A stretch of DNA of 39,892 nt from a virus: positions 1 to 39,892 of the IMG/VR virus record IMGVR_UViG_3300048777_000051; one strand, written 5' to 3'. The stretch's first letter is position 1. Each line of letters begins with the position of its first letter. Under the pieces are notes generated by a model. It worked only from the letters and a program-made list of their open reading frames with translations. It made no database searches and was not told the origin of the DNA. A program made the translations under genes and the position numbers. This document shows, in pieces, positions 29,751 through 39,892 of the stretch.

Positions 29751-29971
29751 CATAGGCAAGTACTCAATAAAATTTGACCGTAGGCGATAGTTTATTAGTT
29801 AGGTGGGGGATTGTATCGGAAAGGAAGTTTAGGACGCGTAGTCGTCACACACGTTACAGTAGAATGAAGTGCACGCTTCCCCCAATCTTGAACCGAGTCG
29901 AACCTATTAGCCTATTAGCCGGGATCAAATTAACAGGTGCGCAGACTGTTTAATGTACGGATGGTTCATAC

Positions 29972-30002
29972 ATATTGTCTGACAATATACATTGTGCGAC
30001 AA
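29972..30002. promoter_or_regulatory. two operator-like dyads
   Basis: ATATTGTC-T-GACAATAT (29972-29988) is a perfect 8-base dyad. TTGTGCGACAA (29992-30002) has the same outer TTGT/GACAA half-sites. The centres are 17 bases apart, about 1.6 helical turns. A repressor or resolvase-type site is plausible, but no such protein is evident. Confidence 0.55.
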
Positions 30003-30060
30003 GATTAACAGAGTACGACCTATTCGAGGTTATAATTGTTCGGGTGGTTATCGGTTTTGT

Positions 30061-30102
30061 TCGGTTTGTTCGGGTAAAAAATCGGTTTGTTCGGGTAAAA
30101 AA
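30061..30102. repeat. tandem 21-base repeat
   Basis: Two exact copies of TCGGTTTGTTCGGGTAAAAA plus A, with degraded copies on each side (30036-30060 and 30103-30115). Followed by TTTTCCACA, a near DnaA box. It resembles iterons. Confidence 0.8.
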
Positions 30103-30238
30103 TGGGTAGTAAAAAAGTTTTCCACAGGGCGTTGAGTGTGTGTCAATTGCCACAATTTTCCTCCTACCCTAACCAGTCCGAACCAACATATTCACCAATT
30201 TCTAGTAGCATATACTATTGCAGGTTTACGTGGGGGGC

Positions 30239-30267
30239 TTGACAACCGCTCAACTAGCGCGTATTGT
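30239..30267 (+). promoter_or_regulatory. promoter for small-gene block 1
   Basis: -35 TTGACA (30239-30244), 17-base spacer, -10 TATTGT (30262-30267). TCAACTAG lies in the spacer at 30250-30257, five bases after the -35, exactly as at 37456. Transcription would start at about 30274, right at element A1. Confidence 0.75.
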
Positions 30268-30283
30268 AAATAGTGAATTAGCA

Positions 30284-30310
30284 CATTAACATCTCGGTGA
30301 TAACTTGAAA
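30284..30310 (+). repeat. block 1 upstream element (A1)
   Basis: CATTAACATCTCGGTGAT (30284-30301), then CTTGAAA (30304-30310). These complement ATCACCGAGATATTAATG (30998-31015) and TTTCAAG (30983-30989) downstream of the block: 17 of 18 and 7 of 7 pairs. Confidence 0.7.
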
Positions 30311-30324
30311 CTAGGAAACAAAAA

Positions 30325-30657
30325 ATGCAAAAAACAGAATATAAAGAAACGTTATCAATCGCTAGCGCCAACGACTTAGTGCGTAAAAACACCCAGGCAG
30401 TCGGTTGGTTAGTGACGCCGCGCGTCTTAGGTACAATTAAAGATCAAGCCGGGCTATATAGGGCGATTAAAGAGTTTAACGCTTTCAATGATAGTAATGA
30501 TCCGTATCGCGAACATGACTTCGGGGCGCTTAAGTTTGAGGGTTGTAAAGTGTTTTGGAAAATAGACTATTACGACCAGAGTTTGCAGGGTTGGTGCGAT
30601 CCGTCGGATCCTAACTGTAACCGTGTACTAACTATTATGCTAGCGGATGAGTATTAA
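30325..30657 (+). CDS. DUF3768-like protein (110 aa)
   Basis: The C-terminal half (DPYREHDFGALKFEG..., WKIDYYDQSLQGW, NRVLTIMLADEY) is characteristic of DUF3768, a small family common in phage and plasmid accessory regions with no known activity. Weak Shine-Dalgarno AGGA just after element A1. First gene of block 1. Confidence 0.8.
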   Translation: MQKTEYKETLSIASANDLVRKNTQAVGWLVTPRVLGTIKDQAGLYRAIKEFNAFNDSNDPYREHDFGALKFEGCKVFWKIDYYDQSLQGWCDPSDPNCNRVLTIMLADEY

Positions 30658-30764
30658 TGACTATTAATAATTACTCACAACCGCTAAAGAAGGCGCTACG
30701 GGTTGGCGACGTGGTTCACTTGATCGAAGCGATCGGAATTGACATATACTATTACGGAGAATAA
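30657..30764 (+). CDS. tiny hypothetical protein (35 aa)
   Basis: ATG overlaps the stop of the DUF3768 gene (TAATG). The peptide is MTINNYSQPLKKALRVGDVV then HLIEAIGIDIYYYGE. It fills the space between two genes exactly. Real translation is plausible from the coupling. Confidence 0.5.
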   Translation: MTINNYSQPLKKALRVGDVVHLIEAIGIDIYYYGE

Positions 30765-30768
30765 TTAA

Positions 30769-30969
30769 ATGGCTACAAAAACTAATAAAATGACAGACGA
30801 ACAAGCGGCTAAGTACCTATACAACCTACTAATGAGTTTCCAATACAAACCATTAGAGGGGTACTTAAAAAACAACTGTAAGCCCGAACTCTGGGGGCAA
30901 TACCAGAAAATGAACTATCAAGCTAAAATCTTTAACTTGGATAGGTTGGCTAATCACTTAGGAAAATAA
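30769..30969 (+). CDS. hypothetical protein (66 aa)
   Basis: A basic, helical protein (DEQAAKYLYNLLMSFQYKPLEGY...) with GGAG before its ATG. Last gene of block 1. No family recognised. Confidence 0.6.
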   Translation: MATKTNKMTDEQAAKYLYNLLMSFQYKPLEGYLKNNCKPELWGQYQKMNYQAKIFNLDRLANHLGK

Positions 30970-30982
30970 TAATATAAATAAC

Positions 30983-31015
30983 TTTCAAGGGTTACGGATC
31001 ACCGAGATATTAATG
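30983..31015 (+). repeat. block 1 downstream element (B1)
   Basis: TTTCAAG (30983-30989), the B constant part GGGTTACGG, and ATCACCGAGATATTAATG (30998-31015). Complement of A1. Confidence 0.7.
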
Positions 31016-31020
31016 GGCTG

Positions 31021-31053
31021 ATTAGCACGTTTACATTATGGGCGAAACTTGAA
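31021..31053 (+). repeat. block 2 upstream element (A2)
   Basis: ATTAGCAC (shared with A1), then the core TTACATTATGGGCGAA (31031-31046) and CTTGAA (31048-31053). The core complements 32276-32291 perfectly. It directly follows B1. Confidence 0.7.
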
Positions 31054-31114
31054 TAACAAACGCCAACCAGTCAATTTATAGAACTGGAAGCGTACAAAAT
31101 AAAGGAGATATAAA

Positions 31115-31423
31115 ATGGAAAATATAGTAACAGATTTAAGCAAGTTCGGTTACCGTGAGTTAGATAGGGCGGGGGATTTATTAAAAGCCTATGCCGAATT
31201 TGATTTCGACGATATGGACAACGTGCAGTTAGTGATGAATACCAATTCCGGTTATGTATTCTTAACCAGTGAGGATAGTTCGACGGTTCTGATGATGAAT
31301 GGTGACAAGTTAGAGAAGTTTTATAGTTGTAATGAATGCGGCAACGAGGGCTTTGCTAATGAAGTTATGACCAAATCAGGCCGCTGTAATAACTGCCACA
31401 AGAAAGGGATGTTTCAAGAATGA
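31115..31423 (+). CDS. zinc-ribbon protein (102 aa)
   Basis: N-terminal helical and beta domain (YRELDRAGDLLKAYAEFDFD, VQLVMNTNSGYVFLTSEDSST) and C-terminal CNECGN...CNNCHKKG zinc ribbon. AAAGGAGATATAAA precedes ATG. First gene of block 2; function unknown. Confidence 0.7.
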   Translation: MENIVTDLSKFGYRELDRAGDLLKAYAEFDFDDMDNVQLVMNTNSGYVFLTSEDSSTVLMMNGDKLEKFYSCNECGNEGFANEVMTKSGRCNNCHKKGMFQE

Positions 31424-31629
31424 CTAAAAAAGATTACGAGCTGATCGCTAAGGTATTTCACGACTGCCTAAGGATCGAGCAAGATATTATAGATCAAAGG
31501 CATACCACGAACGAAACTATAAAATCTCTTGAGTGTTGCGCTATCCGTATGAGTGTAAAACTGGGCGTAGAAAATGCCAAGTTTGATGCTGGTAAATTCC
31601 TAGAAGCTTGCGGGGTTACAAATGACTAA
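31420..31629 (+). CDS. hypothetical protein (69 aa)
   Basis: ATG overlaps the upstream stop (ATGA). Helical (YELIAKVFHDCLRIEQDIIDQ, IKSLECCAIRMSVKLGVENA) with four cysteines. No family recognised. Confidence 0.6.
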   Translation: MTKKDYELIAKVFHDCLRIEQDIIDQRHTTNETIKSLECCAIRMSVKLGVENAKFDAGKFLEACGVTND

Positions 31630-31891
31630 GGTTAGAGTTAGAGTTTTACCAGAATATCTACAGTTTAGCTTGAAAATAGATTACTGGCCGTCTCGCAATA
31701 GTTCTGAATGGTTCTATACGCCAAGTATAACTAAAAATGACCGTTATATTTTCAAACTAACAGATAGCCAATGGCGTAAAGCTAGTAAGTATTTAACTAG
31801 GGTATTGATACCGTTTAGTGGCTACAGTTACAGTGTCAAGCCAGAGTATCAAGTACCAGAATATCAAAACAAGGAGATAATAATAAAATGA
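31622..31891 (+). CDS. hypothetical protein (89 aa)
   Basis: Overlaps the upstream gene by eight bases. Beta-rich and aromatic (RVLPEYLQFSLKIDYWPS..., NDRYIFKLTDSQWRKAS). No family recognised. Confidence 0.55.
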   Translation: MTKVRVRVLPEYLQFSLKIDYWPSRNSSEWFYTPSITKNDRYIFKLTDSQWRKASKYLTRVLIPFSGYSYSVKPEYQVPEYQNKEIIIK

Positions 31892-32010
31892 CTAACTATA
31901 TTATGCTAGCTATTCTAGTTGGTTCGGTGTTCGAGCTAGGCCGTATGATTGAAAGAAACATGCAAGCAAAACGGTTTACAAAGTATTTACAAAATAAGGA
32001 GGTAAAATAA
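31888..32010 (+). CDS. small membrane protein (40 aa)
   Basis: ATGA overlap with the preceding gene and AAGGAG upstream. One N-terminal hydrophobic helix (YIMLAILVGSVFELGRMI) and a basic tail. Ends one base before the next ATG region. Confidence 0.55.
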   Translation: MTNYIMLAILVGSVFELGRMIERNMQAKRFTKYLQNKEVK

Positions 32011-32011
32011 G

Positions 32012-32245
32012 ATGGGGCAAACGATACAACCGCAGAGACAGGCGAAAGTATGGGCGCAAATTGACGCTAGTAAAGCAAGACTAACAGAGCGCGAGAAAGG
32101 CTACAACGTCAATCTGAATATGCATGAGATTAGCATTTTGCTAGACGTAACCGACTATTACGACAAACGGTTAGGCCTACCAGATGACGCTAAAGCGTTG
32201 ACCGAGCGATTACATGAGGAATATGTAAAATACTTTCCGTTCTGA
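32012..32245 (+). CDS. hypothetical helical protein (77 aa)
   Basis: AAGGAGG upstream lies inside the previous gene. Helical protein (RQAKVWAQIDASKARLTERE, DDAKALTERLHEEYVKYF). Last gene of block 2. Unknown function. Confidence 0.6.
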   Translation: MGQTIQPQRQAKVWAQIDASKARLTEREKGYNVNLNMHEISILLDVTDYYDKRLGLPDDAKALTERLHEEYVKYFPF

Positions 32246-32261
32246 ATAATATAAATTAAAC

Positions 32262-32291
32262 TTCAAGGGATACGGTTCGCCCATAATGTAA
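32262..32291 (+). repeat. block 2 downstream element (B2)
   Basis: TTCAAG (32262-32267), constant GGGATACGG, then TTCGCCCATAATGTAA (32276-32291), a perfect 16-base complement of the A2 core. Confidence 0.75.
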
Positions 32292-32339
32292 GCGCGGTGG
32301 TGGTGGTGGTGGTGGTGGCGCTAGCAATTGTTCCTTACA
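32287..32339 (+). repeat. TGG-repeat hairpin between blocks 2 and 3
   Basis: About seven GGT units lie between AGCGC and GCGCT, enclosed by TGTAAG and CTTACA. A stem-loop with a G-rich loop that could also form a two-tier G-quadruplex. Confidence 0.55.
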
Positions 32340-32343
32340 ATCT

Positions 32344-32369
32344 GGGTCGGTTTAACACCTGTTTTCTAG
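32344..32369 (+). repeat. block 3 upstream element (A3)
   Basis: GGGTCGGT (32344-32351) complements ACCGACCC (32625-32632). CACCTGTTTT (32356-32365) complements AAAACAGGTG (32571-32580). The two pairings are nested. Confidence 0.6.
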
Positions 32370-32382
32370 AGAGTGGATAAGT

Positions 32383-32544
32383 ATGATAGAATTACTGCAA
32401 AAATTAGGCTTTGTAGAGTATCACGAAGGTGGTATCTGGTATTTCACAAAGGGAGTGGGGGGAGGATATACGATTGATTATGGTAAAATGACATACGCTA
32501 ATTATGGCGATGATCGGTGGCACTGGAAAATAAACAAGACATAG
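32383..32544 (+). CDS. small hypothetical protein (53 aa)
   Basis: MIELLQKLGFVEYHEGGIWYF ... YGDDRWHWKINKT, a compact aromatic-rich domain. Sole gene of block 3; GAGTGG lies upstream. Unknown function. Confidence 0.6.
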   Translation: MIELLQKLGFVEYHEGGIWYFTKGVGGGYTIDYGKMTYANYGDDRWHWKINKT

Positions 32545-32550
32545 CCAGGT

Positions 32551-32632
32551 CGTTTACGGGGCTATAAACTAAAACAGGTGGAGAGTTACGGGGGTTCGAG
32601 GTAGCCGTAAACCATCTCGAACCTACCGACCC
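32551..32632 (+). repeat. block 3 downstream element (B3), pseudoknot-like
   Basis: Besides the A3 partners, GGTTCGAG (32593-32600) pairs with CTCGAACC (32616-32623). The loop of that hairpin contains CCGTAAAC (32605-32612), complementary to GTTTACGG (32552-32559): a kissing or pseudoknot fold. It lies just before the ATG at 32641. Confidence 0.6.
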
Positions 32633-32640
32633 GGGTTGTA

Positions 32641-32961
32641 ATGAATAAAATAAAATACATAGTAACAATGGGGAATGGAGTTATGATATTGCTCCTCGAC
32701 GTTTTAGCGATAACCTTCTGTACTCTTACAATTAGCACGATCATTTTTTTCTTTCAAGGTAAAGCGCTCACTGCCACTAATTGCGTCGCTACTACTGTCA
32801 CCGTACCCGCAAATAAAACAGTTACACCAACCGCCACCACCACCAACGGAAACTTACTGGTTCCCTCCGCAGACAGCGACGATCCTAGCGCCTCCTGGAG
32901 CGTTTTCATCCAGTCATATAAGCAAGAGCAAGCGGAAACTAAGAGTAAATTAACAGATTAG
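32641..32961 (+). CDS. membrane-anchored Thr-rich protein (106 aa)
   Basis: An N-terminal hydrophobic segment (GVMILLLDVLAITFCTLTISTIIFFF) and a Thr/Ala/Pro-rich outside-facing part with a charged tail. Might act at the host envelope. Start has no strong Shine-Dalgarno and lies at the edge of B3. Confidence 0.6.
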   Translation: MNKIKYIVTMGNGVMILLLDVLAITFCTLTISTIIFFFQGKALTATNCVATTVTVPANKTVTPTATTTNGNLLVPSADSDDPSASWSVFIQSYKQEQAETKSKLTD

Positions 32962-32968
32962 TAGATTG

Positions 32969-33030
32969 TTAGAGAGAGAGTTTTGTCAATAAAAAACGTG
33001 GCCTATCCTGGTAATCGTTTCTCTCTCTAA
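32969..33030 (+). terminator. long-loop hairpin before GroEL
   Basis: TTAGAGAGAGA (32969-32979) pairs perfectly with TCTCTCTCTAA (33020-33030), 11 bases, over a 40-base loop. No clear U-tract, so a terminator, RNA processing site or leader of the groEL message are all possible. Downstream GGCGTTTACGGAGCC (33057-33071) shares GTTTACGG with B3. Confidence 0.4.
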
Positions 33031-33088
33031 GAGTCTATTAATAAATAATAAAAAAGGCGTTTACGGAGCCATAACAAAGGAGGGGAAA

Positions 33089-34675
33089 ATGCCTGGTAAA
33101 TTATATAACGACATACTGTTTGGCAACGAAGCCACTAAAGAATTGCGCGAGGGTGTGCGTAAGATGGCGCAACTGGTTGGCACAACGCTCGGAGCTGGTG
33201 GACGTAACGTCATCTCTCAACGTGCCGGCGGCCAATCCCCGGAAGTAATTAATGACGGGGTAACGATTGCTCGCAACGTGGCGCGCTTACAGTTTGAGTA
33301 TCAAGATCTAGCTGCACAGATGATCAAAGACGCTTCAATACGTACCGTGGAGCTGGCTGGTGATGGTACAACAACGTCGATGGTACTAGCTGGCAAGATC
33401 GTTGAACTTGGCTTTGCCGAGATCGACAAAGGCTACAACGCCATGAAATTACGCCAGGAGATCGAAGAAGCAACTGGCAAGGTCGTTGAAGAGCTTCTCA
33501 AGATGGCCAAACCAATAAAGTCCCGGGAAGAGATCATACAAGTAGCGACTGTTAGCTCCGGTAGCGAGGAAGTGGCTAAATTAATCAATGAAGTACTCGA
33601 GAAGGTGGGTGACGATGGTGTGATCGCTGTCGAGCAAGATCTGTCTCTGAATAATTACAGCTACACCATCTCAGAGGGTATGGAATTTGATCGCGGTTGG
33701 CTGTCGCGCTCGTTTGTCAAAGATGAAGAGCGTCAGTCAGTAACTCTGTATAATCCTTATATCTTGATAGTGGATGGATCTTTGCGCTCGATCTCAGACA
33801 TACAACAGGCTTTGATGCTCGTTAACAACGCCCCGGACGGTGTGCGCGAGCTACTAGTGATTGCTGATCAAGTAACGGATGACGCGTTGCAAATCTTGGC
33901 GGTTAACGCTGGACACGCTGTTAAATGTGCGGCTATCCAATCACCAACCTACGGCGATCAACGTCATGACCACCTACAGGACATTGCTACAGCCACGGCT
34001 GCACAACTAATCGATCCAACTAAAAATCGTATGGACAAGATAACGATTGACGATCTTGGCCGGGCGAGAAAGGTTGTGGTTAGTAAGGCCAAAACTCAGA
34101 TCTTTGAGGGTCGTGGCGAACCTGATGAAATTGCCGAGCGCGCCGAGTTCATCCGTAAGCAAATGAAAAACGCTATTGCTGGCTATGAACAAGACAAACT
34201 GCAACAGCGCTTAGCTCAGTTGACAACTGGCATGGGTATTATCAGAGTCGGTGGTACGACCGAAACAGAGTCGCGCGAGCGCAAGTTACGTGTCGAGGAC
34301 GCCATTGAAGCCACTAAAGCCGCTATTGCCGAGGGAATTGTCGCCGGGGGAGGTGTAGCGCTCTACAACGCTGTTAATGTACTAGACAGAGATCAAAGCG
34401 TTGGAGGGGACGTCGTCTATGGCGCTTGCATTGAGCCACTCAGCCTAATCCTAGAGAATTCCGGTCAAGATATTGAGACTTTAACTACCCTAATGAGCAA
34501 AGATGACAGTAACCTTTATGGTCAAAATGTCGCTACAGGCGAGTTTGGCAATATGATCGATCTAGGTATCATCGATCCAGTCAAGGTCGTACGTAGCGCC
34601 CTGTCAAACGCCTCGGCAGTGGCTTCACAGCTACTCACCGCTGGCGCAGCAATAGTAGTTAAGGAGGAAAAGTAA
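33089..34675 (+). CDS. groEL: GroEL-like chaperonin
   Basis: A 528-residue group I chaperonin. The nucleotide-binding residues are present: NDGVTIA near 55, GDGTTT (91-96), RVEDA near 395 and VAGGGVALY. The usual TLGPKGRN phosphate loop is TLGAGGRN (33-40), losing Pro and Lys. The C-terminal GGM repeats are missing. Apical helices are conserved enough to bind a co-chaperonin. It sits in the middle-expression arm, far from GroES at 24030. AAAGGAGG is upstream. It probably folds phage capsid or tail proteins. Confidence 0.95.
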   Translation: MPGKLYNDILFGNEATKELREGVRKMAQLVGTTLGAGGRNVISQRAGGQSPEVINDGVTIARNVARLQFEYQDLAAQMIKDASIRTVELAGDGTTTSMVLAGKIVELGFAEIDKGYNAMKLRQEIEEATGKVVEELLKMAKPIKSREEIIQVATVSSGSEEVAKLINEVLEKVGDDGVIAVEQDLSLNNYSYTISEGMEFDRGWLSRSFVKDEERQSVTLYNPYILIVDGSLRSISDIQQALMLVNNAPDGVRELLVIADQVTDDALQILAVNAGHAVKCAAIQSPTYGDQRHDHLQDIATATAAQLIDPTKNRMDKITIDDLGRARKVVVSKAKTQIFEGRGEPDEIAERAEFIRKQMKNAIAGYEQDKLQQRLAQLTTGMGIIRVGGTTETESRERKLRVEDAIEATKAAIAEGIVAGGGVALYNAVNVLDRDQSVGGDVVYGACIEPLSLILENSGQDIETLTTLMSKDDSNLYGQNVATGEFGNMIDLGIIDPVKVVRSALSNASAVASQLLTAGAAIVVKEEK

Positions 34676-39511: not shown

Positions 39512-39853
39512 ATGGCAACAGAATACAAACTAACAAAAGAAGAATACGAGAAAGTTAAGCACCTGCTTAAGAAAGAGGCTATTAAGTACAACGCACTTGA
39601 CGATTTAGTCGGTGGAATTGTCTTTATTAGAACTGTCACCCACTACTTCACGGGTCGAGCAATAAACATAACGGGTGACTTTATTCACCTGGAAGACGCT
39701 GCCTGGATACCTGATACGGGTCGTTTCTATGAGTTCGTTAAAGGAACACCTAACGATTCGTTGGAAGTAGAACCAATTGGCACAACCTTTGTTGCTATTG
39801 GTTCTATTATCGAAATAATGCCCTATAGTAACTTGTTTACGGTTCAAAAATAA
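39512..39853 (+). CDS. hypothetical protein (113 aa)
   Basis: Helical N-terminus (TKEEYEKVKHLLKKEAIKYN), then beta segments VGGIVFIRTVTHYFTGRAINI, IHLEDAAWIPDTGRFYEF and FVAIGSIIEIMPYSN. The pattern resembles small beta-barrel proteins seen in other phages, of unknown role. It is the gene cut by the circle junction; its last 28 codons repeat at 1-84. Confidence 0.7.
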   Translation: MATEYKLTKEEYEKVKHLLKKEAIKYNALDDLVGGIVFIRTVTHYFTGRAINITGDFIHLEDAAWIPDTGRFYEFVKGTPNDSLEVEPIGTTFVAIGSIIEIMPYSNLFTVQK

Positions 39854-39892
39854 TGAACCAAGCAGTCGCTAGAACTGGCTGGGAAAGTTCGA

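Follow-up and report, generated by a model that had tools for sequence, protein, structure and literature searches.

Why is each of three consecutive blocks of small genes in a phage genome flanked by sequences that can pair with one another across the whole block? The question is raised by IMG/VR virus record IMGVR_UViG_3300048777_000051, from an uncultured phage, whose 39,892 bases form the window analysed here and in which the blocks occupy positions 30276–31023, 31025–32297 and 32328–32648. We found that the three blocks follow a common plan, with an outer helix P1 of 22–26 nucleotides (nt), an asymmetric internal loop, an inner helix P2 and whole open reading frames (ORFs) inside. The best-supported reading is an RNA panhandle, as suggested by the block-specific pairing, the compensatory changes in paralogous arms, the location of the arms outside coding sequences and the coincidence of the first arm with a predicted transcription start. 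On this reading, the flanks would be the two strands of long-range RNA stems in the early rightward messenger RNA (mRNA), and base pairing between the untranslated ends of each block would close a panhandle whose loop contains the intact ORFs. That the flank pairing exceeds chance is close to certain, and we consider it fairly probable that the pairing acts at the RNA level.

Anatomy of the paired flanks

All features described below are on the plus strand, and the lengths and extents of P1 were counted with G-U pairs allowed. In block 1, the 5′ arm of P1, A1 (30276–30301, 26 nt), pairs with the 3′ arm B1 (30998–31023) through 23 Watson–Crick pairs and one G-U pair. Inside it, P2 joins CTTGAAA (30304–30310) to TTTCAAG (30983–30989) at 7/7 positions, and the helix encloses ORFs (30325–30969) for a DUF3768 protein of 110 amino acids (aa) and for products of 35 and 66 aa. 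The 3′ side of the internal loop is AGGGTTACGG (30988–30997), the first two bases of which belong to P2. In block 2, A2 (31025–31046) and B2 (32276–32297) form 19 Watson–Crick pairs and one G-U pair over 22 positions, and the inner part of this helix (31031–31046 with 32276–32291) is exact at 16/16, so that no exact inverted repeat of the genome is longer and none with separated arms is as long. P2 is here CTTGAA (31048–31053) with TTCAAG (32262–32267), paired at 6/6, and the loop side AGGGATACGG (32266–32275) again begins with two bases of P2. The ORFs within (31115–32245) encode a 102-aa protein with CxxC pairs, followed by products of 69, 89, 40 and 77 aa. Block 3 holds one ORF of 53 aa (32383–32544); A3 (32328–32351) pairs with B3 (32625–32648) through 20 Watson–Crick and three G-U pairs of 24, and B3 overlaps the first possible ATG of the next ORF (32641). 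P2 of this block pairs CACCTGTTTT (32356–32365) with AAAACAGGTG (32571–32580) at 10/10, and is equivalent to CTTGAAA/TTTCAAG in block 1 and CTTGAA/TTCAAG in block 2. Its loop side AGAGTTACGG (32582–32591) is followed by an extra 33-nt hairpin (32592–32624) carrying CCGTAAAC in its loop.

These results bear out and enlarge a first-pass annotation of the window. All the arms that it named were found in place; its A1/B1 pairing now extends to 26 nt, the 16/16 match of A2/B2 was confirmed, and its two A3/B3 matches resolve into a part (8/8) of the 24-nt outer helix and the inner helix P2 (10/10). The sequences that it saw as common to A1 and A2 (ATTAGCAC and ACTTGAA) and to B1 and B2 (TTCAAGGG(T/A)TACGG) were likewise recovered, and the core of the B motif, AGRGWTACGG, is also present in B3, which had been overlooked. 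Counting both strands, the genome contains this core in exactly three perfect copies, one per block beside the 3′ arm of P1, the extra hairpin of block 3 being placed after it. The 3′ sides of the loops read GGTTACGG, GGATACGG and GAGAGTTACGG in blocks 1, 2 and 3, so that the loop is one-sided, with 8 or more nt facing 1–4 nt; the 5′ side ends in A or AA and the 3′ side contains GRGWUACGG. Across the window the hexamer TTACGG occurs 27 times against 15.9 expected, a count matched in 1/100 shuffles. We also observed copies of GTTTACGG, which is complementary at 8/8 positions to CCGTAAAC in the B3 hairpin loop (32609–32616), so that alternative or pseudoknot pairings are possible, a feature that lies outside the main explanation. 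GTTTACGGRGCYATAA is present in two places, once past the block 3 ORF (32552–32567) and once within the chaperonin gene leader (33059–33074).

The arms are located between ORFs, outside coding sequences. The distance from P2 to the first ATG is 14, 61 and 17 nt in blocks 1, 2 and 3, and the distance from the last stop codon to P2 is 13, 16 and 26 nt. The short leaders of blocks 1 and 3 would suit a different explanation, fold-back translational control, in which the 3′ end folds onto the leader and restrains translation for as long as the 3′ arm is present, as in hok, or exposes a duplex to RNase III, as in icaR; both are precedents for 3′-to-5′ fold-back (PMC3868564). However, the helices leave the ribosome-binding sites uncovered, and the first ATG of block 2, far from P2, has its own GGAG site. 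In icaR the 3′ untranslated region (UTR) pairs with the Shine–Dalgarno sequence itself, whereas P1 and P2 lie outside the ribosome sites here. We therefore regard fold-back control as quite unlikely.

Pairing strength and paired changes between blocks

To place the helices against the rest of the genome, we scored every ungapped duplex with arms 150–2500 nt apart. The P1 duplexes of blocks 1, 2 and 3, with scores of 46.5, 44.5 and 46.5, were three of the top four. The fourth was a (GGT)n run; such a run, at 32296–32318 between blocks 2 and 3, is complementary to CCACCACCACC at 32830–32848 within the next ORF. When the genome was shuffled with dinucleotides preserved, 4/60 shuffles contained one duplex scoring at least 44.5 and 0/60 contained two. 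Similarly, for the 150 nt upstream of the first ORF of each block, the three scores compare with shuffled means of 25–28. It could be supposed that the complementarity arose by chance and was chosen by eye, since single helices of such energy do arise randomly and GC-rich phages yield many of them. This is hardly credible in view of the shuffles, the occurrence of three helices in tandem, the common loop motif and the compensatory changes in paralogous arms; the shuffle and covariation results largely refute it.

Folding of whole blocks was consistent with closed ends. In the block ensembles, most sampled P1 pairs had probabilities of 0.92–1.0 and the exception, the innermost one sampled in block 2, had 0.52; P2 had a probability of 0.26–0.31 in blocks 1 and 2 and of 1.0 in block 3. 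The fold z-scores were −3.4 for block 1 and −4.6 for block 3.

The specificity of the arms was apparent from cross-pairing. The A arms are paralogous, reading TTAACATC-TCGG-TGAT, TTTACATTATGGG-CGAA and CTTACAATCTGGGTCGGT with gaps set by hand, and RNAduplex gave energies of −37.0, −39.5 and −43.2 kcal/mol for the cognate pairs compared with −16.1 to −29.8 kcal/mol for the six non-cognate pairs. In the hand-gapped alignment of the three blocks, double-sided changes occurred at 14/28 pairs, and 97% of the cells were paired. Column shuffles gave a mean of 5.7 such changes, with 0/500 reaching 14, and sliding the partner by 1–3 columns left at most one double-sided pair. Blocks 1 and 2 alone differ by five compensatory changes, one change to G-U and one restored mismatch; furthermore, one additional base pair is inserted on both strands, making the helix of block 2 one pair longer. 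The covariation that the first-pass annotation had proposed thus holds between three paralogous blocks of one genome and does not extend to a comparison between species.

The main rival to RNA pairing is gene conversion. According to this explanation, which we judge unlikely, the arms are inverted repeats at the DNA level whose likeness is maintained through gene conversion or inversion events between them, or that serve as a recombination scaffold on which an ERF annealing protein shuffles accessory blocks, and RNA pairing is a by-product. Gene conversion would likewise make the two arms of each block change together; blocks 1 and 2 have similar, abutting flanks, the A1-like sequence of A2 starting at 31021 and overlapping the end of B1 (31023), and the phage encodes an ERF-family protein. 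However, a conserved asymmetric loop separates the complementary P1 and P2, and conversion tracts would need to skip it. P2 of block 3 differs from the others yet pairs at 10/10, the extra hairpin is present on one side only, and the arm positions are fixed relative to start and stop codons, all of which speak against this explanation.

Relatives, mobile elements and genome setting

We searched for relatives in collections that may omit very near records. Megablast of the phage against them gave no match. Terminase relatives were only 21–31% identical over part of the protein, and searches with the portal, the capsid, the 1522-aa protein and the 89-aa protein revealed no close relative. IMG/VR loci carrying a homologue of the opening gene of block 1 (70 loci) or block 2 (21 loci) had comparable flanks in 0/91 cases. 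The strongest flank matches included three loci (L060, L064 and L065) with hairpins on either side of a DUF3768 gene, which were rejected as locally self-complementary; the palindromic GGCGAYATGTCGCC of a further locus (L100) was likewise locally self-complementary and not a comparable flank pair, and one other flank pair (L084) was set aside as lying within coding sequence. The three DUF3768 genes (L060, 1258–1725; L064, 4024–4498; L065, 4889–5363) each have the hairpin AAAGCCCC(T/C)AATTATTAGGGGCTTT, or a sequence very like it, on both sides. On another viral contig (L091, 4770–4880) three repeats resembling those of clustered regularly interspaced short palindromic repeats, namely ACTGCCGAATAGGCAGC and variants, some followed by TTAGAAATATGA, were noticed by eye and may be a mini-array. 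As a negative control, the B motif was extended to 17 bases and occurred, as we take it by chance, in at least 80 bacterial loci. None of the 80 listed had a comparable upstream partner; the best, in GC-rich DNA, scored 40.5 versus 46.5 and 44.5 here. When other loci were scanned in general for closing duplexes in tandem, noise from GC-rich sequence swamped the output. No match to Rfam models, including group I and II introns, ribozymes and riboswitches, was found even at E values up to 5.

These searches bear on the second possibility offered by the first-pass annotation, mobile gene cassettes; we take it here to include transposons, every block carrying terminal inverted repeats of its own. 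Inverted repeats do stand at both ends of unrelated gene sets, and outer and inner sequences are common to blocks 1 and 2. Nevertheless, Pfam scans of about 40 ORFs, comprising most of the larger ones, showed no recombinase, integrase, transposase or resolvase; many small ORFs gave no Pfam match, about 20 ORFs were outside the scan, and a recombinase could act in trans. Block 3 lacks the ATTAGCAC/ACTTGAA and TTCAAGGG ends common to blocks 1 and 2, the pattern across the B1–A2 junction had no match in 2.9 million viral contigs, and homologues of the first genes occur in other phages without such flanks. Mobile cassettes are therefore very doubtful, and of the two possibilities the panhandle is the one that block-specific pairing, compensatory changes and placement favour.

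The position of the blocks in the genome is compatible with a shared early transcript. Bases 1–123 are identical to 39770–39892, and because of this 123-base terminal repeat the record is most likely a complete genome of 39,769 base pairs, circular or circularly permuted. Late genes run leftward (about 2–28.6 kilobases) and early genes rightward from 28.7 kilobases, comprising a replication protein O-like gene, the three blocks and genes for a chaperonin, a glycosyltransferase, ERF and a PD-(D/E)XK nuclease. A candidate sigma-70-type promoter, TTGACA-17-TATTGT (30239–30267, 10/12 match to consensus), would start transcription at about 30273–30276, where P1 of block 1 begins, as predicted from the consensus match only. 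We found no convincing intrinsic terminator between the blocks, terminator matches being no commoner than in shuffles, and a single transcript spanning all three is therefore likely. Just 5′ of block 1, the half kilobase at 29754–30270 has short doubtful ORFs only, a repeated TTGTTCGG and the DnaA box-like TTTTCCACA, and may be a replication origin. Downstream, between a 106-aa ORF and the chaperonin gene, lies a hairpin (32957–33042) with two 23-nt arms (87% complementary) and a 40-nt loop, which could serve as a local processing site. The chaperonin itself (33089–34675) is about 40% identical to GroEL proteins of the phage collection. Elsewhere, 738–1469 encodes an Imm5-like protein (Pfam Imm5_like/Imm5), in which a 66-base-pair tandem repeat encodes an alanine-rich stretch.

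Known closing stems and a possible role of the pairing

Several points weigh against a panhandle formed in RNA. The gaps in the covariation alignment were set by hand to suit the structure, and when MAFFT aligned blocks 1 and 2 without gaps, only one double change was counted. The ungapped alignment fails because the helix of block 2 is one pair longer, and the covariation count accordingly depends on where the paired insertion is placed; the cross-pairing energies are independent of that placement. The covariation is also confined to three paralogous blocks of one genome, relatives with homologous flanks having been absent from the collections searched. About 0.3% of random pairs of 57–60-nt segments reach the cognate RNAduplex energies, from −37 to −43 kcal/mol, so that energy by itself is a poor argument for any single block. 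The ratio of G-U to A-C mismatches, 5 to 2, does not significantly tell RNA from DNA, and the complementary strand of block 3, too, has a more stable fold than its shuffled versions (z −3.1), as is expected of a strong inverted repeat. Promoter-type matches were no more frequent in the genome than in shuffles, and the roles in stability and processing considered below are drawn from analogy.

The closest analogy is bacterial pre-16S and pre-23S ribosomal RNA (rRNA), where processing stems close successive units of one transcript and RNase III sites are common within the stems (PMC7038931). The phage flanks resemble them in having unit-specific complementarity and a long helix around each consecutive unit, presumably also on a shared transcript. 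Unlike the rRNA stems, they enclose protein-coding blocks and repeat a conserved asymmetric internal loop, and cleavage here is a proposal. In Staphylococcus aureus, the icaR mRNA forms a duplex between its 5′ and 3′ UTRs that is cut by RNase III (PMC3868564). There, too, the two ends of one mRNA pair across the whole coding region, but icaR uses a short motif on the Shine–Dalgarno sequence and represses, whereas the phage has helices of 22–26 nt outside the ribosome sites, three in tandem. The hok mRNA of plasmid R1, described in the same paper (PMC3868564), similarly folds its 3′ end back on its own leader region. It is one small toxin mRNA, unlike the phage blocks with their several ORFs, for which we noticed neither an antisense nor a toxin partner. 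The archaeal bulge-helix-bulge motif consists of two 3-nt bulges separated by 4 base pairs, in contrast to the one-sided loop of the phage. Archaeal processing stems of this kind give circular pre-rRNA (PMC7038931), and the likeness lies in a long stem that closes the unit and has a conserved irregularity inside it. Thus, the earlier statement that no matching system has been described is right as regards tandem stems bracketing genes and fails for long-range end pairing as such, which icaR and the pre-rRNA stems already exemplify.

Since no convincing terminator separates the blocks, the phage stems would most likely act like rRNA processing stems. We propose that they are present in vivo during translation of the ORFs, which would start at internal ribosome sites, with P2, 13–26 nt past the stop codon, lying roughly at the edge of the terminating ribosome. 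The polycistronic transcript may then be cut into one mRNA per block, either by a nuclease specific for duplexes (host RNase III, for example) or by a factor recognizing the loop, and the base-paired 5′ and 3′ ends of each mRNA could resist both 5′-end-dependent and 3′ exonucleolytic decay. Whether the stems work mainly in such processing or end protection is, by analogy, evenly balanced in our judgement. More tentatively, and at low confidence, the paralogous stems together with the conserved loop (A or AA facing GRGWUACGG) might constitute a reusable RNA bracket, which is placed around unrelated coding blocks and lets a dedicated factor turn an early transcript into separate closed-loop mRNAs. 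Long-range end pairing of bacterial mRNAs is known from single cases. If the panhandle reading is true, three successive blocks, each with its own paralogous, covarying stem, would mean that end closure can be a modular and duplicable means of cutting or protecting mRNAs.

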